This document shows, piece after piece, positions 2,469 through 48,732 of a DNA stretch of 64,000 nucleotides. Numbering within the stretch: position 1 is the first letter of the stretch; every line of letters starts with the position of its first letter. The notes under the pieces are model-generated. The model was not told the origin of the DNA and made no database searches. It saw only the letters and a program-made list of their open reading frames with translations. Source of the DNA: Chrysophaeum taylorii (taxonomy: Eukaryota > Sar > Pelagophyceae > Pelagomonadales > Pelagomonadaceae); the NCBI GenBank assembly GCA_029834535.1, contig JAQMWT010000529.1:230491-294490 (forward strand), in the 5' to 3' direction. The position numbers were made by a program, and so were the translations under genes.

Positions 2469-5400
2469 AAGACGACGACGAGACCGTTCTTCGAGAATCG
2501 GGGCGACAATCGGAATCCCGCCGGCTCTGGCGATCGCGACCTGGTTCTCGGGACTATTTTTGGCTAGATTCGCCAAGGCCCGCGCTGCCGCCTTTTGCTT
2601 CGAAGAAGAAGAAGAAGAAGAAGAAGAACTGCCGGTGGTTCTGATTTTGGCGAGCTCGACGAGCGCCGGAATAGCGCCGGCCCGCGCGATCGCATCCCGG
2701 GCCTCGGGGTGCCTGTTCGTCGCGAGGCTTCCGAGTGCTCTCGCCGCCCAAACCTTGGCTTCGTCATTTATTTCAGACTCGAGGATCGCGACGAGCGCCG
2801 GAATCGCGCCGGCGACCACTAATACTTTGTGATGCTTATTGGTGGCTAGAATCGAGAGGGCCCGCGAAGCGTGCTGTTTCGTCGCGCGCGTTCCGTTCGT
2901 CGCGAGACCGACGAGCGACGTCGCGCAGCGCGCGACCTCGTCTTCGTCGTCGTTCACGCAGCTAACTAGATTCGCGAGGGCCCGCGCAGCAGAATGCTCT
3001 GCGCATTCGTCGTCGTCGTCGTCGGTATTCGTCCTTCCGTTCGTCAAAGCGACGAGCGCCGGAATACCATTCGCCCGCACTATCCTAACCCGAACATCGT
3101 CGTCGACGACCGAAAGGGTGGCCAAGGCTGCGGCGGCATGCGCTTTCGTCGTCGCGACGTTTCCTTTCATCGCCAGACCGACGAGGGCCGGGATACCCCC
3201 CGCGCGCGCGATCGCCGCGCTATTCTCGGGCGCGAGGTTCCGAAGCGTGCGGGCCACCTGCTCTTTCGCCCTTCCTCTGTTCGCGATCGCGACGAGAGGC
3301 GCGACGCCGCCCGCGCGCGCGACCGCGACGGCGTTCTTCGAGCTCAGGATCCGGAGGCAAGAGGCGGCCTTTTCCTTCATTTCTTCGGTCCCGTCGGTCG
3401 CCAGACCGACGAGGGCCGGAATACCCCCGGCGCGCGCGATCTTCTCTACGTCTGCGCGTTCGACGACGACGAGATTCGCGATCGCCAACGCTCCGCACAA
3501 CTTCCTGCCGCCGGTGGCGAGCGCTGCGAGGGGCGGGACGCCGCCACCCCTCACGATCGCGATCGCGTTCTCGGCGTTATCAGCAGCCAGGCTCGCGAGC
3601 GCCCGCGCCGCGTGCTCTTTCGCCTCTTCGGTCGTCCCGTTCGCGCACGTTTCGATCAGCGGCTCGATCCCGCCGGCGACCTGGACGATGCTGCTGCTGT
3701 CCTTTCCCCTCTCTAGGAGACAGGCGAGTGCCCGCGCGGCCTCGGCTTCTCCGCGCTTCAAAAGCGCGACGAGAACCGGGATGCCTCCGGCGTTTGCGAT
3801 CTGATTCTCGTCGTCGTGCCGCGCGAGGTTCGCGAGCGCTCGCGCCGACCATGCCTTCGCCCCGGCGCTCCCGGATGTGGCGAGACCGACGAGAGCCGCC
3901 ACCACCACCACCACCACCGTGTTGTCACTACTCCTGATTGTTGTAGTCAGGCGCGCGAGCGCGCGCGCGGCGTGCTCGCTCGCCTTGACGCTCCCGCTTC
4001 TGGCAACCTCCGCCAGCGGAGGAATACCCCCCGCCTCCGCAATCGTCGCGCGAGTGACGTCGTTCGCGGCGATGTTCGCGAGCGCCGCGCAAGCCATCTC
4101 CTTCGCCTCGTCGTTCCCGTCGTCGGCGGCGAGAGCGACTAAAGGCGGGATACCGCCGGCCCTCGCGATCGCGAGCTGGATGTCTGGATTCTTCACGGCG
4201 AGATTCGCCAGAGCGCGCGCGGCCTGCTTCTTCGCCTCCTCGCTGCTGCTTCCGTCGGCGGCGGCGGCGGCGGCGCTCGAGACGAGCACCGGGATCCCTC
4301 CGGCGCGCCAAATCGCGATCTTGTTGTCGCCGTTGTTCGACGCGAGATTCGCCAGCGCGCGCGCGGCCGTAGCCCCGTCCGTCGTCCCGCCGCAGTGCGC
4401 GACGAGCAGCGGAATGCCGCCGGCGCGTCCAATCGCTATTTTGTTGTTCGCGTTGTTCCAGGCCAGGGTCGCGAGCGCCCGCGCGGCCTGCTCCTTGACG
4501 AGCTTGCTATTACGAATTTCCAGGAGCGAGACCAGCGACGGAATACCCCCGACCGCCGCGATCTCGACCTTTACGTCGGGGTTGTTCGTGGCGAGGTTCG
4601 CGAGAGCCGCGGCAGCCTCCTCCTTCGCTTCGTCGTTTCCGTTCATCGCGATGTTGATGAGCGCCGGGATGCCCTGGGAAAAACCCGCAATCGAGATCTC
4701 GGCATTCGCGGCATTCGCGGCGGCGAGGTTCCCCAACGCGCGAGCCGACCACACCTTTGCCTCGTCGGTCCCCGCGTTGGCCAGCGCGATCAGCACCGGG
4801 ATACCCCAAGCGCGTCCGATCGCGACGCAGTTCTCGGGGTTGTTCGAGGCGAGTTCCGCGAGCGCCCGTGCGGCCAACACCCGCCCTTCCTCAGTTCCCG
4901 CGTTGTTCGCGAGACCAACGAGCGGAGGGATACCCTCGGCCCGCGCGATCGCCGCGCGGTTCGAGGGGTGTTCTTTGGCAAGAACGGAGAGTGCCCAAGC
5001 AGCCTTCTCCCGCTCTTCATCGCTCAGGCACAGCATGCGAACCAGCGGATCAATAATCATAGCGTTGCCGCCGACGACGACGAAATCACTTGGATTATCG
5101 CCGTCCTCGCTCTCGCGGTCGTTCCCGCCGCCGCGACCAACAACGACCTGAGGAAATGAAGGATGACCTCAGGACTGCGCGCGAATGACAAAAATTTTTT
5201 TTGTAGCCACTCACGCTAGCAGCGAGAGCGCACGCCGCGCGCACTCGAGTCTCGGGATCATCATCAGCAAGCTGCCTGGCGACGTCGACGACGTCGAGAG
5301 TGCGTCGAAGACCTCGTCGTCGTTGGCGGCTCGCCCGCCGCTCGTCGACCTTCGCCCCAGCGCTGGTGAGAGGCCGGATACCTCCGGCGCGCGCGATTGC

Positions 5401-10131: not shown

Positions 10132-13100
10132 TCAGAAGGAGGCGGAGTAGTCGTCGTCGCCGAGGCCGCCGGGGTCGGAGGAGGCCTCCTCCATGGAAGC
10201 AAAGCGCTGCTTGGTCTCGGCAGTCTTGGCGTCGGCGGTCTTGGCTTCGGAAATGACGTCGTTGATGGCGTCGACCCACTCCTGCATGTCGGTCTTGTCG
10301 ATAGCGGCCATGACGAGTTCGTCGTTGTCGGCGGTGACTTTGAAGGAGTTCTTGACCCTCGAGTCCTGCACGAGGTCGACGGTCGCGGTCGCGTCAATCT
10401 TGAAAGTCTTTTCCCCGGTTGCCGCGTTGTCGGTGTCGCGGTGGAGGAGGGAGGTGCCCACGAGCTTGAAGAGCTTGACGTGCCAGGTTTGCTTGACGAG
10501 ACGGGATCGGGTGCGCTTCCGGAGGAGACCTTCTTTTTTGGTTTGTATTTTTTCGACTATAGCCCTATACTCGTCGAGCTTGAGTTGCATGTCCTTCATC
10601 TTCTGCGTGTTCTCGGCGGCCGAGTCTTTGGTTTTAGCTTTGGTCTCGGCGAGCTCGGACTGCGTTTCGTGGAGCGAGTTGAAGTGGTCCGTGAGCGACT
10701 TTTCCCAGAGATTTTGCATCTTGTCCTTCTCGTCCAACAAAACGGCGCGCTGCGCGGCGATCTGGTTGAGCTCGGCCTGCGCCGACTCGAGGGACGTCTT
10801 GAGCTGCTGGGACTTGGCTTCGGTCTGGCGAAGTCTGGTGGTGGCTTCGGCGAGCTTCTTTTGCAGATCGAAGAGCTGGGCGTCCTTCTCGCTCTGGAGG
10901 GACGCTCTCAAATTAATCTCGACCTCGAGGCGCTTTTCGAGCTCGACCTCGCGCACCGCCTTCCGCTGGAGCTCGGTCGACGTCGAGGACGAGGTCGACT
11001 GGTGCTCGTCGAGCTGGGACTTGAGGTAGGTGACGCGTTGATTCATTTTGTGCTGGTAGGAGCGGTGATCGTTGGCGAGCTGCGAGTGGGCCCGCAAGAG
11101 CTCGGCGTGCGTCGCGTTCGCGCCGTCGAGCTCGGCCCGCAGCTTGTCGAGCGCGTTTTGCTTCTCCTCGAGCGCCGTCGCCGATTCCTGGAGCTCTTTC
11201 TGGAGGTTTTCGACCTTTGTTTCGACGACGGTTTTGGCTTCTTGCTCGGCCCGGAGCTCGGATCGCACGCTCGCGACCTGCGCTTCGAGCTCCTTGGCCG
11301 ACTCGCCCGCTTCGGATCTCGTCGACGCGAGCTGCGTTTCTAAATCCGCGATCTTGGCGCGCGTTTCCTCCAAATCTTTGGCGAGTTCGTCGCGCTTCTC
11401 GATCAGCTTCGCGCGCTCCGCGACGTCGGCGGCGTGCGTCTCGTAGAGCTCGTCGCGCTCCTTCGCGACGCGGTCGATGTCTTCGCGGGCCTTGTCGTGA
11501 AGGACGACCATGTCCGAATGCTTGGTTTCCCACGAAGCTATGGTCTGGGTGAGATCTTTTTCTTTTTCGCGGTGAGCCTCGAGCTGCTGCGCCTTCTCCG
11601 ACCCTTCTTTCTTGTGCTCCTCCAACAGCCTCCCGAGCTCGTCGAGCTTGGATTCCTTGTGCGTCGACTTGTTCTCCATGTCCTCCAGCCGCGCGTGGAG
11701 CTGAGCTTGCCACGTCTGCTCCGACTCCAACGCGTCCTTCGTATCTTCCAAATCTTGCTCCAACTCTTCCTTGCGACGGTTCGCGCGCTGGAGTTCGGAA
11801 AACAGCGACGTCAGCCGCGTCTCGGTCGCCTTGGCCTGCGCCTCGAGCTGCATCTTGGCCGAGCTCACCGAAATCAGCTCCCTCTGCTGCGCCTCGAGAG
11901 CGTCGGCCACGACTTTCTCGCGCGCGGCGATCTTCGCCCTTTCGCCCGCCGCTTCGCTCACCTGCGCCTCCAAGGCCGCTACTTTTTGCTCGTGCGCGTC
12001 CTCCACTTTCTCGAACACCGACTGGGCCGCGTCCAACGCCGTGCCCAGCGCGTACTCGGCCAGAACAGAATCTTTGGCCGGACCGGCCGCGACCGCCGCG
12101 TACTTCGAAGCGACCGTCTGCACGTCGAACTTGAGGGCCGCCAGGTCCTCGGGATCCTTGGCTCGCACCATCTGGTCGTGGAGCTTCACCACCTGCTCCT
12201 CGCACAGCCGTTTCGACGCGGCCTCGTTCTTCTCCAACAAGCCCGAAAGCTTGCCCGTCAGCTCGTCTTCGAGATCTTCCTGGTACTGGCTCGCGTGCTC
12301 GCCCCCCGCCCGGGCCTTGAACGTCGCGATCGCCCTCTTCAACCCCACCAAATGACTCCGGAACAGCTTGTCGGTAGACGCCACCACCCCTTGACTCGTC
12401 GTCGTCGCCGTTTCCTGCTGCTCCTGGTCGTACGCGGCGAGCGCCTGCGTTTTCGCGTCCGCGCATTCCTTCGTCATCACTTCTTCCCACGCGGTCGCTA
12501 TCGTCGGGACGCTCCCACCCTCGATCGCCTGGATGTACTGCTCCACCAGCGCCACGAACGAAGATCCGTTCAACGGGCGCCCGTGGATCTCCTTGGGCTT
12601 CAAGTGCGTTTCGTACAAATGCGATTTCAACGCCTCCACGCCTTCCTTGAACTCGGACCGCAAATTATCGAACCCGACCTTGTCGATTTGCTGGAGCCGC
12701 TCTTCGTCCAACAAAGGCCTCACCAGCGGAAAGCACTTGCGCTCCGTAAAAAACGCAGTCATCATCGACCGAACCCGGTTCCGTTCGGTCGTCGCGGCGT
12801 CGAATCCAACTTGCGGCTTCAACGACCGCTCCAAATATTCGTCCGAAGATATCGGGCTGTTGTACTCGTCTACCAAATCGAGCGCGAAGTCCCGCACCAC
12901 CCACACAAACGACGGAAAGAATTTGTGGAAATCGTGGGCCTCCAACTCGCCATCCGAATCCCCCGAAATTCGGATGTGTTGCGACAAGTTCGCGACGAAA
13001 GATAAATTCGAAATTGCCGACTCGTCGATCGACCCCAAACTATTATACACGAGCGTCGAGCACAGCAGCGTCGCGAGACTGAAGATCCGGGTGTCGTAGT

Positions 13101-13518
13101 GCTGGTCGGCTTCGAGCCCCCCCAAACCCTCCGTATCCAACACCACAACCCAGCAAGGTTCGCCCGACGGCAGCGTCGCTCTCCGCGGTTCCCCCCAGAA
13201 CCAAATTCCCCGCGTGCACCGTCGCACCGTCGGTCCCACCGTAAACCCCTCCGAGTGCTCGAGGATGAAGTTCACCAGGCTCGACTTTCCCGTCCGATAC
13301 AGCCCCGCAACGCTCACGACGCAGATCTTCCCCTTGAGCGATTCCAAAATACTTCGCGCCTCGGGGTTCACGCTGAACTTCGACTCATCGTCCACCTCCA
13401 CGAGCGGCACGGCCGCCTTCCGGAACGGGCCCTCCTCGACACCGCTCGTCGTCGTCGTCGTTGCCGGAGCCGCCTCTTCCTCCTTTTCTCTCTGCCGCCC
13501 GAACCCAAACAGCGACAT
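10132..13518 (-). CDS. Large GBP-family GTPase with long coiled coil and PH domain
   Basis: An intronless gene of 1128 residues counted from the ATG at 13518; the frame runs further up but only to non-ATG codons. Residues about 40-330 form a guanylate-binding-protein/atlastin-type GTPase: P-loop 'GLYRTGKSS' near residue 75, the switch region 'RRCTRGIW', 'DTEGLGG' as G3, and 'VVRDF' as the family's RD-type G4. A helical middle domain follows, then about 550 residues of heptad-rich coiled coil. The C-terminus (about 990-1090) is a PH-like domain ('WHVKLFKLVGTSLLHRDT'), followed by a short acidic tail with no CaaX box. GBPs assemble on membranes and remodel or tether them on GTP hydrolysis. Here membrane choice could come from the PH domain instead of prenylation; that is inferred. 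A (CTTG)58 repeat lies in its upstream region. Confidence 0.88.
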   Translation of the reverse strand: MSLFGFGRQREKEEEAAPATTTTTSGVEEGPFRKAAVPLVEVDDESKFSVNPEARSILESLKGKICVVSVAGLYRTGKSSLVNFILEHSEGFTVGPTVRRCTRGIWFWGEPRRATLPSGEPCWVVVLDTEGLGGLEADQHYDTRIFSLATLLCSTLVYNSLGSIDESAISNLSFVANLSQHIRISGDSDGELEAHDFHKFFPSFVWVVRDFALDLVDEYNSPISSDEYLERSLKPQVGFDAATTERNRVRSMMTAFFTERKCFPLVRPLLDEERLQQIDKVGFDNLRSEFKEGVEALKSHLYETHLKPKEIHGRPLNGSSFVALVEQYIQAIEGGSVPTIATAWEEVMTKECADAKTQALAAYDQEQQETATTTSQGVVASTDKLFRSHLVGLKRAIATFKARAGGEHASQYQEDLEDELTGKLSGLLEKNEAASKRLCEEQVVKLHDQMVRAKDPEDLAALKFDVQTVASKYAAVAAGPAKDSVLAEYALGTALDAAQSVFEKVEDAHEQKVAALEAQVSEAAGERAKIAAREKVVADALEAQQRELISVSSAKMQLEAQAKATETRLTSLFSELQRANRRKEELEQDLEDTKDALESEQTWQAQLHARLEDMENKSTHKESKLDELGRLLEEHKKEGSEKAQQLEAHREKEKDLTQTIASWETKHSDMVVLHDKAREDIDRVAKERDELYETHAADVAERAKLIEKRDELAKDLEETRAKIADLETQLASTRSEAGESAKELEAQVASVRSELRAEQEAKTVVETKVENLQKELQESATALEEKQNALDKLRAELDGANATHAELLRAHSQLANDHRSYQHKMNQRVTYLKSQLDEHQSTSSSTSTELQRKAVREVELEKRLEVEINLRASLQSEKDAQLFDLQKKLAEATTRLRQTEAKSQQLKTSLESAQAELNQIAAQRAVLLDEKDKMQNLWEKSLTDHFNSLHETQSELAETKAKTKDSAAENTQKMKDMQLKLDEYRAIVEKIQTKKEGLLRKRTRSRLVKQTWHVKLFKLVGTSLLHRDTDNAATGEKTFKIDATATVDLVQDSRVKNSFKVTADNDELVMAAIDKTDMQEWVDAINDVISEAKTADAKTAETKQRFASMEEASSDPGGLGDDDYSASF

Positions 13519-13746
13519 CTCCCTCCTTCGCGGACCACCACTGCTTTGCTCTACAGCGGTTTTTTTTCTTTGGGGGGGGAGGGGGTACTGTATAGTGCCC
13601 AATTTTTTTTCCAAAATTTTTTTTCAGCACCAGCAGCCGCCGCAGCCGCCGCAAGAATTGGTGTTGTTGTTGTTCTTGTTCTTGTTGGGTCTCTCTGCGA
13701 ACCCACTCCGTCCGTCCGATAGAACACTCTCGCGCACCACGATTCT

Positions 13747-18006: not shown

Positions 18007-20640
18007 TCAATAATGTCTTTTGTGGTGGTGGTGGTGGTGGTGCGTCCCGCGAATTGAGCTTTCGTGGGCCCATTTGGACGGGACTCCGAGCTTGTTGGGA
18101 AGCAACCTCGATCCAGCACCAAGCTCGTAGCCAGCAGTCGTGAGACTCCCGGGCTCTAGAACAGCTCCGGCTCCAATCGTGACGGTGCCAACCTCCACGT
18201 GATCACTCGCATACTGATGACAGAAAACGATAGCGCCTTCTTCGACCACGGCGTTCTGTTTTAGTACCAAGTTATCGACATCCCAGAAGACGGGCGCCGC
18301 AACGATGGCGTTCCCTTCGACACGGGCGCCAAGCATGCGAACAAACCACCCGTAGGCCGCGGTCGAGCTGACGAAGAAGAAGGACGTAATCGTGAACCCA
18401 GCGCGCCCGGCGTCTCCAAATTGTCGCATCCAATATCCGACGCTGAATGGCATCCACTGCTTTGTTTTGCGTCCTTGGGCATCCAAGGCGAACCAGAACC
18501 ACTTGTTTACGATGGCCAGGCAGGCGTAGCCAAGAAGAAACGACGAGAGAAACGCGAGCGCAGCGAACGCGCGGACAGCGAGGAACGGCTTCGAGTTGCG
18601 AAAGTGAACGTCCGGCCCGTAGTCCGAATTCCGGACATCGTAGACAAGCCACTCGAAGGCTGCCGTCGCGGTCGCCACGGCGCCGTAGAGTGCGATCCCA
18701 AAGAGCAGGCGAGTCCAAAGTAAGAGGGCGAACGGCGCCACGACATACAAGACTTTGTGCCAGAACGTCAAGGCGTGGTCGTAGTCGAGTGACTCGCGGC
18801 TCCCGTGGCGGTCCCACGGGAAGCTCACTGCACCCTGACGAGCGATGATCGCATAGCCTTCGGTCGTGCGCTCCTCGATTTCCTGGGCTCCAGCAATCAT
18901 CGCTTCCGTATTCATTGCCACGCTGAATTCTCGCAGCTCGGCGTGACCGCCCCGAATCAGCGTGTTGCCGCCCACGAGCGTCGTCGTTGGAATGTGCACT
19001 GAGCCGTCGGTAGTTCCGAGAATGACAGAGCCAAATCCAACGACGCTATTGTCACCGATCGTGATCGTTGATCCCGTCGTTGGGAAAACAGTACAGAAGG
19101 ACCCGAGATGGGCGTTTTTGCCGACGCGGAGCTGTCGTAGGTTGGTGATGCGTTCTAGAAGAAAATCGACGTGCGTCCACGAACCTGTCGGAAGATGGTG
19201 GTGGTGCGTTCTTAAACAACAACAAAGAGAACGTACCGATTTTTGCGCCGAGGCAAGTATAGTATCGACGCAACACCCACGTGGCACCGAACTGAATAAC
19301 CGTACGACGATAAATGCTGTCGGCAACTTTGTCGTAGACGAACATGAGAGCTTTTTCGAGGCTGGCAGGTTGACCGGCATCCCACACAGGTAGCACATAT
19401 CCACCCCGTCGTCCTCCGAGCCCCCGCCTCGCACGAGTCAAGCACGTCTTAATCCCGCGCGCGATCCAGAAAGAAGCGACGCCAAAGGCGAGCGCGGCGA
19501 GCTCGTGCTGCACGAGCACGCACGCGACAAGCGGGACGAGCCGGGCCGTCTTGCCATACCGCTGGAGAAATAGCTTCCGTTGTACTTTCGGGTCCGTGTT
19601 GCTGAAAATCATGCTCATTGATGGGAATATCGGAGACACGATATACCTGCGCGACAAACAACAAAATATTTCTCGTCCTCGATTCATCCGTACGAGCACG
19701 CTTCAGAATTTTTTTTTTTTGAAGAAAACGCCGCAACAAACGTCGATGTGAATGTCGCGAATGCCTCCGGGTTCGAATGCAGAGCGTCGGCGACATTCTT
19801 GTGGTTTGACGGCGGATACAGTCCTTCTTTCTTCAGGACGAGCGACAAGGTGACGAAGGCTGGGTACGTTGACGCGATGATAATGACAATTGTGGCATAA
19901 ATGGCAACGAGTGAAGTAACGAACGACAAACAGGTTGTGCTCCAGACGGTGGTCGGCTCCTCGGGCGACACCGACGAACCGTCGTTGGTCCCGCAATTCC
20001 CCGTTTCCCGCGTAACGGTCGCTAGAGGTCCGACGGTAGTGCGCGACGCGAGCTTGGTTCCCGACGCCAGCACCGCTCGGGCTTCGATTCGACACGATGC
20101 CCCCAGCTCCACGGTCTGAAAAACCACCTGGCGTCTCACCATGTCGAATTTGCGAGGGTGAACGATCACTTGGGGCCCAAGAACACAACCAGCGCCAATA
20201 AAAACGAATCGAGGCTCGCGGACGTGGACGGTATCGAGAACAACACCACTTCCGATATGCGCTCCAAGCAAGCGATAGTACAGGGCGAGGAGCGGCGTCC
20301 GTCGAAGCTCCTCGAGGAACAAAAATCGATTCATCTGATCGATGCGCTCAATCGTCCACCACGCGATAAACTTAACGGACTCGAGCGAGACAGCCGCCGC
20401 TCCCGGAGCTAGGAGGAGACGTGTCCCTGCAGCTGCAAAGCTTAACAAAACGCACAACGATGCCCAGGCTAGTGGGCCGTGCACCAGGATTGCGAGTCGC
20501 CATGACTCGACCTGTGATTGGTTCAGCCGCCATGCAACCAGCCACGCGGGCACGACAAAGACGGCGGCGACGTACGAATACGCGACGACCCAACACGCGA
20601 AACGCAACGCCGAATAATAATGCAGGACCCTCTGTTCCCT
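18007..20640 (-). other. Domain block: membrane / hexapeptide-repeat NRPS terminal domain
   Basis: After the second carrier come several hydrophobic spans ('ACWVVAYSYVAAVFVVPAWL', 'LAWASLCVLLSFAAAG'), then 'LLALYYRLLGAHIGSGVVLD' leading into isoleucine-patch hexapeptide repeats ('IGAGCVLGPQVIVHP'). The pattern repeats across the two small introns: 'YYTCLGAKIG', then 'LRVGKNAHLGSFCTVFP', more membrane spans, and a last repeat block 'VTIGAGAVLEPGSLTTAG'. This two-fold arrangement resembles the terminal domain of epsilon-poly-L-lysine synthetase (Pls)-type NRPSs, which anchors the enzyme in a membrane and replaces a thioesterase. Here it may release or polymerise the lipopeptide, or present it to the membrane; that role is inferred. 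The His run at the very end comes from a GTG-repeat in the DNA. Confidence 0.75.
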
Positions 20641-23600
20641 AGTTTCAGTACCTTCGGCGACCGTGACGACGTCAAGCGAGTTTGTGCCATCATCAAGAGG
20701 CGCATTAGACATGTCGCGCGAGGGGGCAGTGATGATGCCCTTCGTCTCGAGAACCGCAGCGAGCTCGCGTACGTTCTTGTGATCAAGGAGGAGCGTAGGT
20801 TCGAGCTCCACGCCCGGGAACTCTTCTTGCAGCTTGAAACGAATCCGCACCGCAGACAGCGAGTTTGCTCCGAGTTCGAACAACGACGTCTCTGCATCGA
20901 CGTCGTCGAGTGAGCACCCGATCGTATTTGCAACGATTCGCGCTACTGTCGTCTCGATTGGCGAGGCCGGCGGCCGACGCTCTCCCGTCGCGCGGCGTGC
21001 CACCGGCACAGGAAGTCGTTTGCGATCGATTTTGCCCGACCCAGTGCGTGGCCATACCTCGATTCCGACGATGATTGAAGGCACCAGGTAAGCAGGCAGA
21101 GTTTGTTGCAAGCACGGCCTCAGCGAGGCCTCGACGTCCAAGTCGGCGGCGGCCGGATTTACGTAAGCAACTAACTGTGGATCTGCACTGACGTCGTCCC
21201 GAAGCACACATACCGCTTCGATTACACCAACCTGCTCGCGGAGGACGTGCTCTATCTCTCCGAGCTCGATCCGGTGCCCCCGAAGTTTGACTTGGTTATC
21301 GATGCGGCCAGCGAACTCGAGCTCGCCATTCGGGCGCCAACGAACAAGATCACCCGTGCGATACACCACCCCGCGTCCCGAGGGGTCGGTTTCCGGCCAT
21401 GGATTCTTCACAAACTTGGCGCTCGTCAGATCAGGACGGTTCAAGTATCCGCGCGCAACCTGAATTCCTCCCAAAATAAGTTCCCCGAAGACGCCGATCG
21501 GCTGGAGCTCCATCGTATCTGGAGCGACGACGTAGCACGCGACGTTCGCGAGCGGTTTGCCGATCGAAGAGAGCGTTTTGGTGTCGGCATCGGTAACAAT
21601 GTTGACCGTCGAAATAATTGAGACTTCCGTCGGTCCATAGACGTTCAACAGATGGCGACGATTCAGACGACTGTTCGACGCGACATTTCGGGTCAGAGCC
21701 TCGCCACCTACCACTAACACACGAACAGTCGACGGCAACGAATCTGCAAGTGCAAGAGTGCTTGGGACGTCAGATACGAGAGCAATGTTATCAGATTCTC
21801 GAAGTTCGAAGAGGGAAGATCCGCTTTGAAGAAGCACGCTCGTGCCACCCAGAATTATTAAAGTGGTGAAAAAATTTTGGTAGAAAAAGTCAAAGACATA
21901 TTGAAAGGCCAGAGCTACTCGCACCACGAAACGTTGGTCTTTCCGAAATGCGTCTGGAAAAAATACTGATTCGAAAAAAGGTCTCAACCTCATCAGCAAG
22001 TTGACGACGCCGCAATGCTCGACCATCACGCCCTTCGGTCGTCCCGTGGAACCCGACGTATAGATAATATAGCAGAGGTCCGCCGAGCTCCGCGTGAAGA
22101 CCTCGAGAAAGCCTGAGCTTTTGACCCGCCCATCGCTCCCAAGACGCAGTTCGGTCAGATCGATGCCAGAGAACAACTCCGTCGAGTCGTCGGCGTCTTC
22201 GCGAGTGATAAGATGCGAGCAGCGCGCGTCCTCGAGCGTCAGGCGTTGGCGTTTCGCCGGGGCGCGAGTATCGAGCGGCATGAAAGCTCCGCCTGCCGAC
22301 AGCACGCCCAAGATCGCCGTTGCCATCGCAAGAGACCTGTGTAACAGCAACGCCACGATCACGTTAGATCTTACGCCGAGCGCGCGCAGCCGAGCGCCGA
22401 TCGTCGAAGCAGCGTCCTCGAGCTCGGAATACGTCATTTGTGAGCCTTGCCACTCAACGGCTGTGATCTCGGGGTGTCTACGGGCTTGTTCCCAGACGAG
22501 GTCGTTGACGAGCACGTCTCGAACTTGGTGATCAGCGCAAGTTTGGTGGTTGAACTCCGTCAGAAGTCGGTCTCGCTCAGAGTCGGGGATCATCGGGAGC
22601 TGCCAGATGTCGGCTATCTCTCGGTCGTGGACGAGAGCAGCCGCCAACACGAGGAACCGCTCAGCGAGCCGCTCGATGCTGGCGCGCTCAAACAGCTTAG
22701 CGTTGAACTCGATGATCGCTTCGACGCGTCCAGCCGCGGTAGGACGCGCCGTTAACATCACGTCACACGTAGCCATAGGTGGTGGTGACGGGAGTTGGAT
22801 CTTTTCGAGAGTCAAGGCCGGAGTCCACGTCTGCGAGTCCGAGCTCCACCCGTCCATTGGCTGCCAGTTGATTAGCGTCTGAAACACGGTGTTTCGAGTT
22901 GGGTCGCGCGTCAGTTTTGGTAGCAATTCGTTGACCACGTATTGGAATGGCACGTGGGAACTCGACAAAGAGTCGATCACGACCCTCTTACAGGTTTCAA
23001 CAAGTTGCGGCGCTGACAGACCTCGGGAAACGTTGATGTTCAGAGGCAAGACATTCACAAAATATCCGCAAACGTTATCGTACGAGCGACGAAAACCCGG
23101 AAAGGTTCGACCTTCTGACGGAGTTCCGACGACGACTTCCTCGGCGCCGCTGTGTCTTCCCAGAAGCAGTGCCCATATTGCGAGGAATACGTGGAAGAGC
23201 CTGCAGTGGAACTCGGCCGCCAAGGCTGAGAGGGCAGACGCGAGGTCGGTCGACACGCGCACTTCGACGTAATCGCCGCTGTACGTCAGCCTCGGCGAGC
23301 GCGGATAATCGAGAGGCAGATTCAGAGGCTCCAAGGCCCCCTCACGAAGATGTTGGCTCCAGTATCGCTTGTGCTTCTCGAGGAGATCATCGCTGAGAAG
23401 CAGTGCGCGCTGAGTACGTGCGAAGTCGAAATATTGCAGCTCCGGCTTTGGAAGGCACGATCCGTTCTCGGCTGCTGCGCTCGTGGTGCACGTCGCGGAG
23501 AGGTAGAGCTCGCGGAGTTCGCGCAGGACGATGCGAGTCGACGTCCCGTCACACGCGATGTGGTGCACAAATACAACAAGCAGTAGTAAGTCCCTTCGTA

Positions 23601-26600
23601 GTGTTCTCTCGGACGACGACGACGACGACGACGAGGAGTCCTCGACGAGGAGGCACACGCACAAACATCGAACGACGGGATCACCTCGTAGGAGATCGAA
23701 TGGTACGGATTGCTCGTCTCGTGCACGCTGGAGCGCATCCGCCTCGGTCATCGCAACCGCGTCGACAAAATTGACTTCCATGTGCTCGTGCACAGTCTGA
23801 GTGAAGTGGTTATCGGTATCGAGTCCGTACGTCGTGCGAAGAATGGCGTGCCGATGCACCAGATCGTTCAACGCCTTACGCAACGCGACAATGGAAACTG
23901 TTCCCCTCACCCACTTGGCGAGAGGCATAATTCCGACTCCCATACTGACATCCGCAGATGCACACTCCGTAAGCCACTGGAGCTGGTTGTACGAGAGCAC
24001 GTTGCCGTCCGACGCCAGACTGACGTGATCCAACGCATCAACCAGACCTTGATGATGATGATGATCCCCCGCTGCTGCTGCTTTTGCGACTTGGGCGATG
24101 ACGGGCTCCGGAACAATATCGGCATCGGTTGACGGAACGACGACGATCCGTTCTTCAATCACTGCTGCCAGCTCGCGAATACTCTCGTGGTCGAAAACGA
24201 GCGTCGATTCGAGGTCTTCCAAGCCCGAGAATTCTTTTTGGAGCATGAAACGGATCCGCACCGCAGACAGCGAGCTCGCTCCCTGTTCAAACAACGACGT
24301 CTCGACGTCGAGGTCGTCTAGCGTCCGACACCCGATGGCTTCCGCAACAACTCTCGCAACAGTCAACTCTAGGGGCGAGCTCGGCGGCCGATGCTCTGGC
24401 GCGCGGCCTGTTGCTGGCACGGGAAGCCGCTTTCTATCGATCTTACCCGACCCTGTACGCGGCCATACCTCGATTCCGACAACGATTGACGGCACCAGGT
24501 AGGCAGGTAGCGTTTGTCGCAGGCTCGAACGCAGCGCGTCTTTCGTTACCTCGGCCGGGTTGACGTAAGCAACAAGCTGTGGCTCGGCACCAACGTCGTC
24601 CCGAAGCACACATACCGCTTCGATTACACCAACCTGCTCGCGGAGCACGTGTTCTATCTCTCCGAGCTCGATCCGGTGCCCGCGAAGCTTGACTTGGTTA
24701 TCGATGCGACAAGCGAACTCGAGCTCGCCATTCGGATGCCACCGAACGAGATCACCCGTGCGATACACCACCCCGCGTCCCGAAGCGTCGGTTTCCGGCC
24801 ATGGATTCTTCACAAACTTGGCGCTCGTCAGCTCGGGACGGTTCAAGTATCCTCGGGCAACCTGGATTCCCCCCAAAATAAGCTCCCCGAAGACGCCGAT
24901 CGGTTGGAGCTCCATCGTATCTGGAGCGACGACGTAGCACAGGACGTTTGCGAGCGGTTTGCCGATCGAAGAGAGCGTTTTGGTGTCGGCATCGCTCACC
25001 ACTTTGAGCGTCGAATCTATCGACACTTCCGTCGGGCCGTAAACGTTTAGAATCACGCGCGGCAGACAGTTCAAAGCAGCAACTCGGCTCAGAATCTCGC
25101 CACTTACGGTCAACGCGCGAATACTGGACGGCAATGATTCCGCGAGTGCCAAGATGGTGGGGACTTCGGATATGAGACCGATGTCGTCAGATTCTCGAAG
25201 TTCGAACAGAGAAGAACCGTTGGGAAATAGAACGCACGTTCCTCCCAGAAAGACGAGCGTGCCTAGAAACACCTTCAAGAAACCGTCGAAAATGTACTGA
25301 GCAGTCACCGCTGCTCGCACGACGAGCCGATCGGGCTCCTCGCGAAGAGCTTCTGGAAATGGTGCTCGAAAGAAAGATCTGAGCGAGAGAAGGACGTTGA
25401 CGACGCCGCGGTGCTCGACCATCACGCCCTTCGGCCGGCCCGTGCTGCCCGAGGTATACATGACATAGCAGAGATCCGTGGAGGAGGAGGGCCGCGGGAT
25501 GAAAACAACCTCGGGCGGCAGCGGCGGCGCGTCCGTCGTCCCGACCGGGAGACCATCGCTTCCGAGACGCGTCGTGGTCAGATCGATGATTCCAGAGACT
25601 AGCTCTGTCGTGTCCGTGTCCTCGTGAGTGACAAGATTCTTGCAACGCGCGTCCTCGAGCATCAGGCGTTGCCTCTCAACCGGGGAGCGAGGATCTAGCG
25701 GCATGAAGGCACCGCCGGACGACAGCACGCCAAAAATTGCCGTCGCCATTCCGAGAGACTTGCGCAATAGCAGCGCGACGATCATCTCGGCCTTCACGCC
25801 GCCGAGAGTTCGCAGCGCGGCGGCGATCGTTAACGCCCTTTGCTCGAGCTCGGAGTATGTCATCTGAACGCGTTGCCATTCGACCGCGGCCGTCGCGGGA
25901 TATCGACGGCCTTGATCCCAGACGAGGTCTTGGATGAGAGTGTCCTGCGCTCGAGAGTCGACGCGAGACGTGTTGAATTCGGTTAGAAGGCGCTCTCGCT
26001 CTCTGTCGGAGATCATTGTGAGCTGCCAAATGTCGGCGATGTGTTGATCTTCGACGAGCGCTGAAGCAAGGACTACGAAGTGATCGGCGAGTCGTTGGAT
26101 GCTCGTTCGCTCGAAGAGATCGGCATTGAATTTGATTGTCGCTTCGACGTGTCCGGACGTCGTCGGACGACCCGTGAAGGTGACGTCGCACGTAGCCATG
26201 GAGACCACCGGCTGAAGCAGAATTGGCTCAAAGCTCAAGTTCGTGGTCCAGTTCGTCGTCGCGTCGGCGTGCCACCCGTCGACTGGTTCCCACATTATTA
26301 GCGTCTGGAAAACACTGTTTCGGGAGGGATCGCGGACAAGTTTCGGGAGCAAGTTCTCGACAACGTATTGGAACGGCACGCGCGAATTCGATAGAGCCTC
26401 GATTGCGACTTTCCGGACGTTCCGGACGAGACTCGACGCTGACATTCCTCGCGGGACGCGGAGGTTCAGAGGCAAGACGTTGACGAAAAAGCCACAGAGA
26501 TTATTCTCGTCTGTGGTGGTGGTGGTGGCACTTCGTCCGTGCGACGGCGTTCCGACGACGACGTGCTCGGCGCCGCTGTGTCTTCCCAGAAGAAGTGCCC

Positions 26601-29600
26601 AAATCGCGAGGAACGCGTGGAAAAGCGTACACTCCCATTCGGCTGCAAGCCGAGCGAGAGCAGACGCGAGCCCAGTCGGCACGCGAAGATCGACGTGATC
26701 GCCACGGTAAGTGAGCTTCGCTGGCCGCGTACGATCAACCGGGAGATTCAAAACCTCGAGGTCTCCCTCGTTTAGATGCTGGCTCCAGTAGCGCTTTTCC
26801 CCTTCTAGACCTCGGTCGAGCATCGCGCGTTGCCGACGCGCAAACTCGCCGTACGTTTGCTTGAGCTCCGGTAAGCACGCGCCGATGTCGGCGGCGGCGG
26901 CGTCGTCGGGACCGCTTGCGGCGGCGACGACGTAGAGCTCGCGCATTTCGCGCAGCATAATCCGTGACGACATCCCGTCGCACGCTACGTGGTGCACGAA
27001 TACGCTCAGTAGCACGTCCTTCGTTCCCGTCGCGACGCGCACGAGCAAGCAACGAATCACCGGGTCACCTCGCAATATATCCAGAGGTGCGAGTACCTCG
27101 TCTTTGGCCCGCCGAACCGCCTCTGTCTCGGTAGGTGCAACCGCGTCAATAAAGACAACTTCCGTGCGATCATCGCGTTCGCATTGCGTGAAGTGGCCGT
27201 CGTCGTCATCAATTCCGTATGTTGTGCGCAGAATGGCATGTCGACGCACGAGCTCGTTCAAAGCTCGGCGCAATGCGAGAACAGAGATAGATCCCCGAGC
27301 CCAAGCAGCGAACGCCAAGATGCCAAAACCTTGACTCACTTGGCTGGACGCAACCTCTGTCAAAAGCTGTTGTTGGTTCCACGAAAAACATAATTTTCCT
27401 GGTGCCACGTCGCGATCATCATCGTTAGGCTTGTGGTGTGTTGAAATCGAAGACGACTCCGCGATTTTGACGCTATCTGGAAGCCCGACGGCGCTTTTTT
27501 CGCACATTTCAGTCGGCGTCGTGACTTCGACGTGCTTGACCAAGAACTGTGCGAGCGCCTCGACTGTTGGGTTCTCAAACACCGCACTCAGGGGAATCCT
27601 GACGCCGCCAAGTTTGGTGCTGAGACTCGACGTGAGTTTGGACAACGCAAGCGAGTCGACCCCTGCCTCGAAGAAGTTCGTCGTGACTGAGATCTCATCG
27701 CTCGAACCTACGACGGAACTCAGCGTGGACAGCACGAGGTCCTTGGCCCGGGGAATTGTAAGCACTTCCGATTGGGCATTGCCGATTTTGCCGTCTCGAG
27801 TTGGTGGCCCGTGTCGGCTTCTTTCAAGGACCTGGTATCTGTCGAGGACTCGGTGCCACGAATTTGAAAACAGCGTTGCGAGCTTAACACCACCGTCGAC
27901 GGCGCGCTGAGATTTGTCGGTATTGGCGAGCGTCGTCGTCGCCGCCGCCGCAATGGAGTTAGACAGTTGGCACACAAGCTTCTCGATCAGCTCGCCCAAG
28001 GCAGTGCTCGTCTCCTTAGATCGCCAGTCGTACGATTCTGCTGTAATCTGTCTGAGCTCGGGGTGACAAGCCAGAGAAGTTGCGTGCATGTTGAGTGTCG
28101 TGGTGCGCATCCATAAAAACAAAGCCGGGTCCTCGTTGGTTAACGACAACAAGCACGGCACCAAGAGGTTCGCAACACGAGGCAGGAACGGGCTTAGTTC
28201 CGTCAACCCGAACGAAAGATTCCATATGATATAGATTTGGACCCATTCTTTCGACATCATAGCTGGACACACTTCGTAGCGTACTACCGATTCCGAGGTT
28301 CCCGCGTATAGTGTGCTCGTAGCCACTTCCACCACGCATGCGGTCGGTTGCTGAAGGACGCAGCTCCAATACGCGAGTTCAAAGCCAACACCTAAGAGAG
28401 AGTTGTCATCAGCACGACGCAGGCGCGGGCATATACACATATTGGTGTTGTTCGTGCCACCAATAAACCTCTGACTCTGAAGTATCACGAGCGTAGCGGT
28501 CACGGGTATTAGAGACGCCTTCAACGGCCGTCACTATGATGTCGTCAGCGAGCAGCTCTCCGACTAAACGCGCGGTGTCCTCCAGATGACTCGGTTTGCG
28601 TCTCGTCTCGGCTATAATCCTCGCGGCTGAGAGAAGGGCTTCGTGCTTCATGAGCCTACGCGTGATTCGCGTGTTACGAAATCACATAGAATGCACGACG
28701 GTCGTACTCGTATGGTGAGCTTGTATTTATGTCGTCGTCGATCGCACGATCATTTATGGCACCTTCTCGCACCATCAAGAAATCAAGCAAGAAGTCCGAG
28801 TCGCCGGGAGGCGTAGACGGACGCAGCGTCGATATGCCGAGCGTGTGAAGAGCGAAACAATAGACGACAGCACGTCGCAGGTCGGCGGCAGCGCGCTCGT
28901 CTGAAATGGGAAGATCGCAGCCAGGTTGTCGATTCTCGAGCTCTTGCGCAACCTGCAGGAGCACGGGCATCTTCATCACGTTTGACTTGATCGCCTCGAC
29001 GAACGCTGCGACGTCGACGACAGAGTCATCGTACTCGAGACGTCGCATCAGTGCGTCTGTGACAGCAAGCTGCCGGAGCATCACGGGCAAATCAGGGTGG
29101 TCTTTGAGAATAGTGTCTGGCGGGAACAGGTTGATGATCTGCTTTGCTACGCGCTCGACGAGGGCCAAGCCTCCAGAAACCGACACCACGCGGTTGCTCG
29201 CGGGCACGCCAGCAAGCGGGAAATCTGCAGTCGGTACCGCGATTGCGGCTGCTGCTCGCACACGTGCGGCGGTAGCTCGTTTGGCATCTTGAGGGTTGCT
29301 TTCGTCGTGTAATGCCAAGATCGTGTCGCGAAGAGCACCCGACGGCGTCGTTCCATCCACACCAGGGTGTGCGGCGAGGCCAGCCGCAATCAGCTCGCGT
29401 GGCTCGTCGATAACTCCCTTTGTAAAGTCACGCGTGAGGCTAACAGCGGACCAGAAGTAGCGATTGTCGGTTGCCCAGCGATTAAGACGGATGAGCCTCC
29501 GATCTCGGCCGTCGCCGACAACGATGCCGAACCGAAAGCAGCCAAAATTTTCAGCGTGCTTCAGATTCATCTCGGCGTCGAGGGCGTCGTGGCTTTCCAG

Positions 29601-32325
29601 CGGTGCGAGCAGATGCCGCGAGCTCGCCGAGTGCGGGACGAACTTGACAAGGCCGGTGGTGTGGAGCACCAAGACGTAGAGCTCGCGGGGCAGTGCCGCG
29701 ACAGCGCGTTCGGAAACTCCGGGCCGCAGGTCGACGTCGTCCAGCGTTATTTTGATTTTTGCGACAACGGCCGCCTCGTGCGGGAAGCGGCCACAGCCCA
29801 GATGGTGCTGGCAGTATACGTTCTGATGATCGTCGATCGCATTTTCTGCCTCGACGCGAAATCGTCGAAACGGGTAGTGTTCGTCAAGCACTTCCCAGAC
29901 ACCTAGAAAATCAGAGAGCTCGTAGGGGCATCCCCGAGCCTGAGCTTTTTCGAGCAAGCTCTCCGACCACTTCATTGTCGGATCCGTTCGCACGGAATCA
30001 CCTCTGCGCACCTTCTCTGACCGGCTATGCGCGGAGTATTGGGGATAGTCGTCAACAGAATCGCTGACAGAACTAACGAGCCGCCGCAGCCACTGGGAAA
30101 CCCCCGCTGCAGAATCATTCCTCTCAACGTCGCGCCCACCGTCAGCCGCGGCGAGTAGTAAGGGCTCTTGTTCGCCGCCGAGTGTTGGATCCGAATCAAA
30201 GACGACGCGCAGCTCGCGAGCTACGAGGGCATCTCGAATCGCGCGACGCCGTAGCTTCCCGCTCGTAGTCTTTAAGATTGTTTTCTGCTTGATAAACACG
30301 ACGCGGCGTGGTCGCAGGCCAACGGCCTCGCCAACTCTCGTTTTGAGCGTCGACGCGAGAGCCTCGCATTCCGATGCAGCGTGATCGCGGACTTCGAGAA
30401 CTACGCACAGACGCTCGTTTTCGTCTTCCGCGCTCGCGACGGCAAAGGCGGCGATACATCCTGGTCTCGCGGAGTCGGCCATGGCCTCGGCCGCAGCCAC
30501 TTCGATGTCGTCGCTATAATAATTTTCGCCGCCGATGATGACCATGTCCTTTATTCGGCCGCATACGAAAAGACGGCCATCCTCAATGAACGCCTCGTCG
30601 CCCGTCCTCAGATATGCCTTGCCATCGTCCGGCTCGACCCGTGCGCCGAAGGTCTCGGTGCTGAGTTTTGATTTGCCCCAGTAGCCCTGGGCGACCGAGC
30701 CAGAGCTCAACCACAGCTCGCCAGGCGTGCCGTCAGTCACGACGCGTCGGGTCGTGGCGTCTACGACGCAGACGTCGACGGGGAAGTCAGAACCACACGA
30801 GATGAGGTCGGGTCGTCGACGGGAAGCGACGAGGCCGTCGTTCTCGCCACATGTCGCCACGACGTGCTCGGCGAGGCCGTAGTTGGGGACGAAGATACCG
30901 CGATTTCCGTCGTCGGGGAGGCGTGCGTGGATTGCAAAGTACGCTGCGAACTCGCGGAGGAGCGACGGGACGCAACGCTGGCCGACGCCGCCGACGCAGT
31001 ACACCAGGCAGCTGAGGTCGATGTCGCTGACGTCGGCGTCGCCGGCACGCTTCGTGCACAACCGGTAGCCAAAGTCTGGCGAGGCCGTCCAGATGGCGCG
31101 ATATTTGGAAACGGCGCGCAGCCACATCAGAGGGTCGGCGAGGAACGAAAGCGGCGAGAAGTTGACCATGTGGTAACCTGCGCAAAATAATTTGCAGCTC
31201 ACTCTATTCAGGTATATGCGTCGACACTGGCTCTAGCCGGCGAGAAATGGCCCGAGGAGCATAAGCATCAGGCCGCTATCGTGAAACTGCGGTAGCCAGC
31301 TAACCGCGACGACTCGCGCCGACGGTTCGGCCAAGTCGTGCAAACGAGCAACTGCGGCCTCGCCGATGCGGGTTCCGAGAAAGTTGTGCTGGCCAGGCAA
31401 GTAGATTTCGTTGACGTTGTGCCAGATGTTGCGATGCGAAATCATAACGCCCTTGGGGTCCCTGCGAGACACAGTATGGCTTTACGTTGCGCGTGCAAAC
31501 CCACCCCGTAGAGCCCGACGTGAATTGAAGTAAGGCGATGGAGTTGTGCGGGGCTTGGTCGAGATGTCCGCTGCTCTTTTGTTGGTCCCCGTCCCTTCCG
31601 TGCGCGGGTTCTTGCGATCGACGACGCGCTATAGTATGCTTGCTGTCGAGAAGCGACTCGCTGGCCCTCTCGTCTTCTTCGTTTAGACTGGAGCCGTGAG
31701 AGACTTGAACGAGTTCTGGCTTGGCATCAGCTGGTCGCGGAACCTCATCATTCGACACAAAGTGGCGAAACGACGTTGACCGCATTAAATCCGCGCGTGA
31801 GCTCGTCAGCCGATGGAAGAGTGATGACGGACGCGGATCATCGCTCAGCCCGTCCGTGTTGTGCCAGCGTATCCCCGGCCACGGGTGCCATATGCTCGTT
31901 GTTACGCGCAGCTTGTGCACGACACTGTCGGTGAGTCCCACCTCCGATTCGCAGGCAGTGCTTACGAGGTCTAGTTTCTCGAGGCCCCGTCGAAGGCTGG
32001 AGGGATCGGGAGGGTAATTCGGCACGGCCAAGACGCCAGCGCGAAGACACGAGACGAACGCGACGAAGAATTCGGGCCCCGGTGAGTATACGAGCATGGC
32101 GCGATCGCCCGGCGCGAGACCGAGGTCCCCGAGGAGCCACTTGGCCACGAACTCTGAGCGCATCCAGACCCCGCCAAACGACAGATTGGCAGCTTGGACG
32201 CCAGCGCCGTCGAGCCACGTCAAGAAGGTTTCCTTGTCGAGGGCGGCCACCGTCTTGCTCGCCTGTGCCTGCCAACTCACTTCTTCGCTCCAGGGGCGCA
32301 ACCATCGCGGCTTGCTCGACGTCAT
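18007..32325 (-). CDS. Fatty-acyl-AMP ligase / NRPS megasynthase with membrane terminal domain
   Basis: I read one gene of at least seven exons: 32325-31505, 31461-31238, 31177-about 28700, a short exon inside about 28650-28440, 28391-19694, 19646-19237 and 19184-18007. Intron phases agree at every junction I could fix (43, 60, 47 and 52 bp introns); the joins around 28.4-28.7 kb are not resolved. The product is about 4,600-4,700 residues: FAAL, an unassigned stretch, ACP, C-A-T, C-A-T, terminal domain. A fatty acid would be activated as acyl-AMP, loaded on the ACP, and condensed with two amino acids. The start is the ATG at 32325, which opens directly into the FAAL N-domain. This may equally be annotated as several gene models; the shared logic and matching phases favour one. 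A GC-AG intron (31237-31178) is unusual. The 8.7-kb central exon is intron-free, consistent with a bacterial origin of the NRPS core. Confidence 0.72.
20740..24060 (-). other. Domain block: NRPS module 2 (C-A-T)
   Basis: The condensation domain has 'HHIACDG' at 23545-23565. The adenylation domain has A3 'YTSGSTGRPKGVMVEH' (about 22018-22065), 'FDFFYQNFF' at A4, 'NVYGPTEVSI' at A5, 'FAGRIDNQVKLRG' at A8 and 'GSGKIDRKRLPVP' at A10. The carrier serine ('GANSLSAVRI') lies at 20860-20862. All core residues appear intact. The C-terminal half of this A domain is nearly identical in DNA to that of module 1 (21200-21560 versus 24600-24970), while the A4 pocket regions differ, so the two modules probably load different amino acids or an altered set. 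Confidence 0.85.
24150..27745 (-). other. Domain block: ACP and NRPS module 1 (C-A-T)
   Basis: The ACP motif 'GVDSLALSKL' places its phosphopantetheine serine at 27652-27654. The condensation domain has the intact catalytic 'HHVACDG' at 26974-26994. The adenylation domain shows A3 'YTSGSTGRPKGVMVEH' (about 25404-25451), A4-like 'FDGFLKVF', so the substrate-anchoring Asp of alpha-amino-acid pockets is kept, A5 'NVYGPTEVSID', A7 'YRTGDLVRW' and A10 'GSGKIDRKRLPVP'. The A8 motif is 'FACRIDNQVKLRG', with Cys where Gly is usual. The carrier serine ('GASSLSAVRI') lies at 24271-24273. The first C domain, placed after an acyl-ACP, would act as the lipo-initiation condensation step. The amino acid cannot be predicted safely by eye. 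Confidence 0.85.
27760..30194 (-). other. Megasynthase region of unknown function between FAAL and ACP
   Basis: About 500 residues of exon 3, a short alternative-frame exon (about 28650-28440, 'HEALLSAARIIAETRR') and the first 180-200 residues of the long exon. I recognise no family. The first part has a compact, apparently folded block ('LSDFLGVWEVLDEHYPFRRF', 'LPRELYVLVLHTTGLVKFVP', 'HAENFGCFRFGIVVGD'). The second has mostly helical sequence and a hydrophobic stretch around 28230-28100. The open frame ends at 28674 and the next begins in another phase, so at least two introns lie here and I cannot place them uniquely. In known FAAL-NRPS systems the ACP follows the ligase directly, so an insert this long is unusual. 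Confidence 0.5.
30195..32325 (-). other. Domain block: fatty-acyl-AMP ligase (FAAL)
   Basis: Spans exons 1, 2 and most of the FAAL part of exon 3. The N-domain has 'LAPGDRAMLVYSPGPEFF' and 'AGVLAVPNYPPDPSS', the usual FAAL opening. The phosphate loop 'LQFTSGSTG' ends exon 1 and continues as 'DPKGVMISHRN' in exon 2, so the 43-bp intron splits the ATP-binding motif. Next comes 'WLPQFHDSGLM', the FAAL version of the HD motif, then 'YGLAEHVV', 'YLRTGDEAF', 'IKDMVIIGGENYYSDDIE' and 'LKTTSGKLRRRAIRDAL' with the catalytic lysine region. FAALs make acyl-adenylates and pass the chain to a carrier protein rather than to CoA. An insert of about 70 poorly conserved residues precedes the phosphate loop and might hide a further intron. 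Confidence 0.85.
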
Positions 32326-48080: not shown

Positions 48081-48677
48081 ATGAGTAGTCCGTCGGGGTC
48101 TGGATCGGGGTCGTCGACGCCTCCTTTGAACGTGTCGCGGAAGATCGCGATATTGGGGTCACACGGGGTCGGGAAGACGTGCCTCGCGACGCGGTTTGCC
48201 AAGGGGAGATTTGTGGAGGAGTACGACCCGACTATCGAGAATACTTTCACGCGGAAGATTCGTTTTAAGAAAGTGCATTTCAACACCGAGGTCGTGGACG
48301 TCGCGGGAATGGACGAGCACTCGCGGCTGTCGCGGAACGCTTCGGTGGGCGTGCACGGGTACTTGCTGGTGTACTCGGCGGCGAATAGGCTGAGTTTTGA
48401 GAAAATGGGATTCGTGAACGAGGCGCTTCTGGCGGCTCAGGGTATGTCGCCCGGCGTGGTGCGGGTGCTGGTGGCGACGATGATCGACGTGCGGCAGCGG
48501 GAGGTGCCCTTCCACGAGGGGCAGAGCCTCGCGGACCGGTGGGGCGTGCCGTTCTTGGAATGTTCGGCCAAGGAGAACATAAACGTGACGGAAGTGTTTA
48601 CGACGGCGATTAAAGAGGTCGACAAGGACACGGGGTTGTTGGAGGCCGACTCCCAGACGTCATGTCGTATATTATGA
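48081..48677 (+). CDS. RHEB/Ras-like small GTPase with altered nucleotide-specificity motif
   Basis: 198 residues from the ATG at 48081. After a Ser/Gly-rich leader of about 17 residues come G1 'GSHGVGKT', the effector loop 'YDPTIENTF' (identical to RHEB), G3 'DVAGMDEHS' and G5 'SAK'. It ends 'CRIL', a CaaX box whose terminal Leu favours geranylgeranylation. Two catalytic features are unusual: the switch-II Gln (DTAGQ) is Met, and G4, normally NKxD, is 'TMID', losing the residues that grip guanine. RHEB activates TOR on lysosome-type membranes. This one may be constitutively GTP-bound, nucleotide-poor or a pseudo-GTPase (inference). Its TGA overlaps the end of the next, antisense gene by 6 bp, and a GATA-like run sits just before the ATG next to the fold-back element. 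Confidence 0.88.
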   Translation: MSSPSGSGSGSSTPPLNVSRKIAILGSHGVGKTCLATRFAKGRFVEEYDPTIENTFTRKIRFKKVHFNTEVVDVAGMDEHSRLSRNASVGVHGYLLVYSAANRLSFEKMGFVNEALLAAQGMSPGVVRVLVATMIDVRQREVPFHEGQSLADRWGVPFLECSAKENINVTEVFTTAIKEVDKDTGLLEADSQTSCRIL

Positions 48678-48698
48678 GGAGGAGGGCTCTAATGTTTG

Positions 48699-48732
<34 letters not shown>

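Follow-up and report, generated by a model that had tools for sequence, protein, structure and literature searches.

A fatty acyl-AMP ligase, two NRPS modules and a Pls-type membrane terminus in one predicted gene of the pelagophyte alga Chrysophaeum taylorii

Lipopeptide assembly started by a fatty acyl-AMP ligase (FAAL) is known from bacteria: in non-ribosomal peptide synthetases (NRPS) such as PvdL, involved in pyoverdine formation, and the bacterial lipopeptide synthetases, an acyl ligase, a carrier and C-A-T modules follow serially on one chain, and PvdL begins with the acyl ligase. Pls-type termini are known from short enzymes that make homopolymers. According to the accessible part of its description, PosA is predicted to have six transmembrane (TM) helices arranged as three pairs and has been modelled with three left-handed beta-helices, and its homologues are reported in bacteria, fungi, archaea, Amoebozoa, Metazoa and Alveolata (PMC10522769). 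FAALs with dehydrogenases and oxygenases occur in bacteria, and in plants FAAL-like domains lie between HemY and catalase or amino acid oxidase domains (PMC8460268, in the sections available). In Chrysophaeum taylorii, polyketide synthases (PKSs) have been described, many of which carry an adenylation-like domain at the N terminus; LbH is mentioned for some synthases, and nine NRPS genes were counted among the antiSMASH results, whose layouts are not described in the available sections of the genome paper (PMC10366177).

Here we describe a gene in which a FAAL start and a Pls-type terminus appear to be joined in a photosynthetic eukaryote. The window, that is the whole stretch of 64,000 nucleotides analysed, is an end stretch of contig C529 (230491-294490) in the 70.8-Mb genome of the pelagophyte alga C. 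taylorii. The window gene (W) has the order FAAL - MID - ACP - C-A-T - C-A-T - Pls/PosA-type terminus (TERM), where MID is a region of about 700 residues between FAAL and the first carrier, ACP0 (Table 1). It resembles the PvdL-type NRPS in the serial arrangement of ligase, carrier and modules but differs from them in being eukaryotic and having introns, in carrying MID between ligase and carrier, and in ending in a membrane terminus with no thioesterase found. Features common to W and Pls/PosA (TIGR02353) are three pairs of TM helices, three beta-helices and a single histidine that is invariant; however, the terminus of W follows FAAL, MID, three carriers and two C-A-T modules rather than a single A-T, the score lies under the curated cut-off, and the motif that follows the histidine in bacteria is lost. 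The C. taylorii synthases with an adenylation-like N terminus or LbH are similar in these features, but those treated in the sections at hand are PKSs and W is an NRPS (PMC10366177). The FAAL fusions with oxidases or dehydrogenases (PMC8460268, accessible part) compare with the relatives C390 and P0002-P0004 described below, whereas MID itself matches no such family.

A tblastn search with one bacterial terminus matched 69 plasmid records; among eight bacterial plasmid loci examined, seven encode single proteins of 1,320-1,378 aa, one has an AMP-binding protein and the terminus as two genes, and none is multimodular. The literature search, outside which most subscription papers fell, returned no description of a FAAL combined with a Pls-type terminus and no paper with both 'fatty acyl-AMP ligase' and 'poly-l-lysine synthetase'; W is possibly listed as an NRPS in the supplement of the genome paper.

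Table 1. Predicted features of the window gene, in window coordinates
Feature	Coordinates	Residues (aa)	Strand	Basis and remarks
Whole gene W	18007..32325	4,655 in all	-	7 exons; splice model and paralogue gene structures
Exons	32325-31505, 31461-31238, 31177-28708, 28655-28489, 28391-19694, 19646-19237, 19184-18007		-	
FAAL, fatty acyl-AMP ligase	30207..32238	30-672	-	introns 31504-31462 and 31237-31178 inside; NCBIfam, PDB
MID, N-terminal strand-rich part	29283..29990	745-980	-	conserved in W, C315, C52 and P0007; no family match
MID, helical part	27814..29180	1015-1420	-	introns 28707-28656 and 28488-28392 inside; no family match
ACP0, first carrier	27514..27756	1440-1520	-	Ser1474; PF00550, E 3.9e-15 on the piece alone
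C1, condensation domain	25990..27396	1560-2028	-	HHVACDG at 1694; PF00668
A1, adenylation domain	24406..25980	2032-2556	-	PF00501 and AMP-binding_C, TIGR01733, PDB matches
T1, carrier	24124..24375	2567-2650	-	Ser2601; PF00550
C2, condensation domain	22570..24006	2690-3168	-	HHIACDG at 2837; PF00668
A2, adenylation domain	21004..22557	3173-3690	-	PF00501, TIGR01733
T2, carrier	20734..20976	3700-3780	-	Ser3738; PF00550
TERM, Pls/PosA-type	18010..20628	3816-4655	-	introns 19693-19647 and 19236-19185 inside; TIGR02353, hhalign
TERM repeat 1	19984..20589	TM pair 3829-3878, beta-helix 3935-4030	-	hydropathy, PF00132, TIGR02353
TERM repeat 2	18940..19932	TM within 4048-4181, beta-helix 4258-4345	-	hydropathy; Hexapep below cut-off
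TERM repeat 3	18079..18774	TM within 4401-4489, beta-helix 4547-4632	-	includes His4586; hydropathy, TIGR02353

The gene model joins four open reading frames of the minus strand (32334-31300, 31232-28674, 28530-19684 and 19437-18007), with small exons between them, into a coding sequence of 13,968 nt that runs from a start at 32325 to a single, terminal stop at 18007. The coordinates, strand, domain order and open spliced frame proposed in an initial annotation of this DNA are borne out, and none of the in-frame stops that it had named as counter-evidence remains after splicing. The domain search that it had suggested found the FAAL, the NRPS domains and a TIGR02353-type terminus; in fact, Pfam and NCBIfam families follow along W as AMP-binding/FAAL, PP-binding (three), Condensation (two), AMP-binding (two) and hexapeptide/TIGR02353. 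Six introns were found where four had been placed; in order they measure 43, 60, 52, 97, 47 and 52 nt (range 43-97), and FAAL, MID and TERM contain two each. Five are GT-AG, and intron 2 (31237-31178) is GC-AG; the need for a GC donor counts against the model, though the paralogues C315 and C52 also have GC at this site. Since GC donors recur in these three genes, gene finders requiring GT-AG may miss exons in the C. taylorii genome.

In exon 3, most of FAAL shares one frame with the first part of MID, and exon 5 comprises 2,899 codons of unbroken frame with the end of MID, ACP0, C1-A1-T1-C2-A2-T2 and the first part of TERM. Because every intron lies inside a domain, any division of the gene at an intron would split a domain; together with four paralogues in this genome that follow the same general plan, this makes it well supported by the sequence that FAAL through TERM is one gene. 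The splice model thereby supports the earlier claim that a single eukaryotic gene combines a FAAL with two NRPS modules and a membrane terminus of Pls type. That two neighbouring genes instead produce separate FAAL-MID and NRPS-TERM transcripts, whose products act together, is very unlikely. The public gene model starts inside C1, and the exon 3 frame, with intron 3 kept, runs into a stop near 28674, shortly after the donor, as two genes would have it; but that stop sits inside intron 3 (28707-28656), which splits MID and is found at the same place in C315 and C52, exon 5 reads from the second half of MID into the NRPS in one frame, and both halves occur in one predicted protein, P0007.

The window gene is publicly annotated only in part. 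The public model (P0001, CTAYLR_003483, 2,774 aa) contains no FAAL, MID or ACP0 and only the later part of C1; it also skips as introns the stretches 22052-21708, with the ATP-binding loop of A2, and 19434-19185, a part of TERM, both of which are open. As the skipped parts recur in the paralogues, the skips, together with the start, are judged to be probable annotation errors; the annotation was built with RNA-seq and protein evidence, according to the available sections of PMC10366177.

The gene family in the same genome and the MID region go beyond the initial annotation. The paralogues were read by dynamic-programming alignment of the W protein to the four same-genome loci, on other contigs, that have a strong Condensation match, and each has FAAL, C-A-T and TERM on one strand. 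C315 (3,458 aa) is identical to W at 2,347 of 3,375 aligned residues (70%) and has all six intron positions and phases in common with it; C52 (3,502 aa; 2,324 of 3,396 identical) has five of the six introns, C390 (3,147 aa; 1,768 of 3,012) two, both in TERM, and C370 (3,222 aa; 1,299 of 3,043) none. C315 and C52 have a clear first carrier (65% and 68% identity to W); that of C370 (E 0.0036) and C390 (E 0.029) is weak, with PF00550 under the cut-off. Weaker Condensation loci are C671 (E 1.7e-12 and 4.4e-10), with adenylation and carrier matches, and C466 (E 1.7e-10), with a FAAL.

Comparison of W with C315 and with C52 gave dN/dS values of 0.15-0.34 in the 10 of 13 blocks alignable with each, a sign that changes of amino acid have been selected against; C315 and C52 are one-module genes and offer no counterpart to A1, T1 and C2. 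Against C390 the values were 0.20-0.37 in the clearly alignable blocks (FAAL, C2, A2, T2 and TERM). The length of exon 5, the dN/dS of 0.15-0.34 and the agreement of C315 with W in the position and phase of all six introns exclude a chance origin of the frame. A decaying or silent gene without a product is most improbable: one paralogue, C370, does have an in-frame TAG in MID (L018 9489-9491), possibly a sequencing error, a mark of a pseudogene or a sign of a missed intron, and only a putative 39-nt intron would bypass it; W, however, has no in-frame stop, retains its core motifs and shows the low ratios given above. C1 of W is nearest to C52 and C315 (65% and 63%), whereas C2 is nearest to C390 (68%, against 55% for C315 and C52), so that the two-module gene looks like a front of the C315/C52 line and a back of the C390 line; this origin, with A1 and A2 later made alike, is moderately supported by the sequences.

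Several predicted proteins are related to parts of W. P0007, from an ENA contig, combines MID with a carrier match that is weak (PF00550 E 0.0023, under the cut-off) and with the start of a TERM (TIGR02353 E 9.8e-16), and it was not recovered by plain BLAST with the TERM of W. P0008, an annotated C. taylorii protein, has a FAAL, parts of MID, a weak carrier (PF00550 E 0.0013, under the cut-off) and a divergent TERM, aligned by hhalign with a probability of 91.3% to the bacterial set and 5.3% to the algal set; no Condensation domain is among its Pfam families. In the C. taylorii proteins P0002, P0003 and P0004 (CTAYLR_006911, _008816 and _006909), one (partial) up to four copies of FAAL occur together with acyl-CoA dehydrogenase domains and with a related terminus of Pls type, and in P0006 a PKS part (ketosynthase, acyltransferase and carrier) is followed by a Pls-type terminus (TIGR02353 E 2.4e-49).

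By its sequence the ligase of W appears nearer to FAALs than to CoA ligases. Its best NCBIfam model is the fatty-acid--AMP ligase PRK05850 (E 2.2e-79); among the models named as CoA ligases the best reaches E 1.2e-69. Among 18 PDB sequences matched at E<=1e-20, six are named AMP or adenylate ligase, and the others are named polyketide synthase, acyl-CoA synthase or ligase, saframycin synthetase, McyG or adenylation-domain protein; several of the matched sequences are FAALs. Considered for the FAAL-specific insertion, the alignment to 7r7g covers the middle of the domain. The remaining assembly line has the composition of a multimodular NRPS, with two PF00668, two PF00501 and three PF00550 domains; HHxxxDG motifs in both condensation domains and the three carrier serines were read in the sequence. 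The best NCBIfam match to the exon 5 frame is NF004282, an NRPS/PKS model of 4,334 positions, and PvdL chains are among the PDB matches of C1. The binding-pocket letters of A1 and A2 differ, at positions that we take to be those of the pocket. Neither a thioesterase nor a reductase is among the Pfam families of the four open reading frames (E<=0.001) or the NCBIfam families of the spliced terminus, in agreement with the absence of a thioesterase already suggested from the letters.

MID is a candidate new family on the evidence of its sequence. Pfam gave no match to it, not even with a threshold of E 10, and NCBIfam gave none to its first part or to the MID of P0007, a protein whose sole family is TIGR02353 in its last part; the best match of the MID stretch to PDB sequences reached only E 0.72, and one scan of prokaryote contigs and one of viral contigs gave no convincing relative. 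Identity to the MID of W is 67% in C315, 64% in C52 and 49% in P0007, here over residues 3-670 of 686 (96% of the length); likeness is partial in C370 (38%) and in P0008 (49% and 37% in two pieces). The AlphaFold2 (AF2) model of the strand-rich part is of low confidence (pLDDT 48), and that of the C370 counterpart of the helical part has a pLDDT of 54, with about 67-89 in its first 120 or so residues. An identity as acyl-CoA dehydrogenase was rejected: hhalign gave a probability of 0.1% against the dehydrogenase part of P0002-P0004, and Pfam no match.

In the place of MID, C390 has a flavin amine oxidase (PF01593, E 7.1e-08) between FAAL and carrier, and P0003 has acyl-CoA dehydrogenase domains, two families of which are also listed in P0002 and P0004. 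Because of the domains found there in C390 and P0003 we call this position a slot, and from its place between ligase and carrier it may serve for tailoring.

The spliced TERM matches TIGR02353 with E 5.6e-23 and 81 bits, under the curated cut-off of 423, and the last exon alone with E 5.7e-09; P0002 (90.9 bits), P0005 (158.6) and P0006 (168.4) also score below the cut-off. A comparison by hhalign of five algal with four bacterial Pls/PosA termini gave 99.8% over 584 columns. The terminus had been described as two-fold; hydropathy and the published description of PosA point instead to a threefold, PosA-like build, three times a TM pair followed by a left-handed beta-helix. The pairs lie at 14-32/45-63, 233-251/348-366 and 586-604/656-674 in TERM numbering, and two extra segments (71-89 and 608-626) are barely above the threshold, making eight in all. 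Segment counts vary, with seven in C315, C52 and C370, six in C390 and six to nine in the four bacterial termini, so that six helices are a reading rather than a direct output.

His4586 (codon 18219-18217) is the only histidine of the W TERM kept in 10 of 10 and in 14 of 14 aligned sequences, the set of 14 including the four bacterial ones, with the proviso that these sequences do not count as independent, P0002 and P0003 hardly differing in this region, and that P0008 is divergent. G4260 and G4549 are invariant in both alignments and A3938 in the 14. The motif that follows the invariant histidine in bacteria (H-L-Y/F-E-D-R-V/I-M-K) is absent from the algal genes; given this loss and a TIGR02353 score far under the cut-off, the chemistry of TERM may differ from that of bacterial Pls/PosA. 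Near the predicted C-terminal end of the protein (window 18022-18042) there is a natural run of seven histidines.

We consider it probable that W is a single nuclear megasynthase that builds an N-acyl dipeptide, as the domain order would imply, and that TERM releases this product to an acceptor. FAAL would make the fatty acyl-AMP and load the chain on ACP0, where MID would act on the bound chain or position it; C1 would then join the acyl group to an amino acid on T1, and C2 the acyl-aminoacyl group to an amino acid on T2. TERM, anchored by about six TM helices, would take the acyl-dipeptide from T2 and, in place of a thioesterase, pass it on, probably with the help of His4586, to a free acceptor, which would be an amine, another amino acid or a molecule of the membrane. 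The individual chemical steps, the product and the part played by MID are all inferred; FAAL loading, the two condensations and release by TERM draw on established knowledge of the families and on the motifs present.

It is unlikely that the single gene works by polymerisation as in Pls, with several free (di)amino acid units added to the acyl-peptide by TERM, or with reuse of the module, to give an acylated oligomer. TERM is homologous to the terminal part of the homopolymer-making Pls/PosA (PMC10522769, in the part available), but two different modules, with different pocket letters in A1 and A2, precede it, and another acceptor is suggested by the start with an acyl group and by the missing bacterial motif after the histidine. 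Moreover, the same kind of terminus stands after acyl-CoA dehydrogenase domains in P0002-P0004 and after a PKS part in P0006, contexts in which amino-acid polymerisation is probably not its sole use.

Beyond the N-acyl dipeptide synthase favoured here for W, we put forward, as a tentative and rather doubtful generalisation, a pelagophyte class of synthases with the plan FAAL - interchangeable tailoring slot - ACP - (C-A-T)n - Pls-type terminus, where n is 0, 1 or 2. New genes would arise by slot swap and module addition, MID would be an enzyme family of its own altering the ACP-bound fatty chain, and the terminus would have turned from the polymerising of amino acids to the transfer of lipopeptides to a membrane acceptor. 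W and the four loci of the same plan form a gene set in which a Pls-type terminus with a peptidyl donor, the role of MID and the lipopeptides of a bloom-forming alga can be tested.

Ten long neighbouring open reading frames were scanned; eight match commonplace families (ARM repeat twice, U-box, GBP, release factor, ABC transporter, amidohydrolase and FAST/RAP), two have none, and no biosynthetic cluster around W is evident among them, in agreement with the poor clustering remarked in the genome paper (PMC10366177, sections available). Bacterial contamination of the assembly has a negligible probability: FAAL, C and A domains have bacterial relatives, and the sequenced culture gave 12 single-contig bacterial genomes (PMC10366177, same sections), but six introns common to paralogues on other contigs in practice refute it, and the neighbours, for example the ARM-repeat, U-box and GBP proteins, look eukaryotic. 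The guanylate-binding protein (GBP) at window 10135-13623, minus strand, is a 1,163-aa open frame with a C-terminal PH domain, and the frame at 48675-51260, also on the minus strand, has an ABC transporter ATPase and ABC-2 membrane domains in an ABCG-like order.
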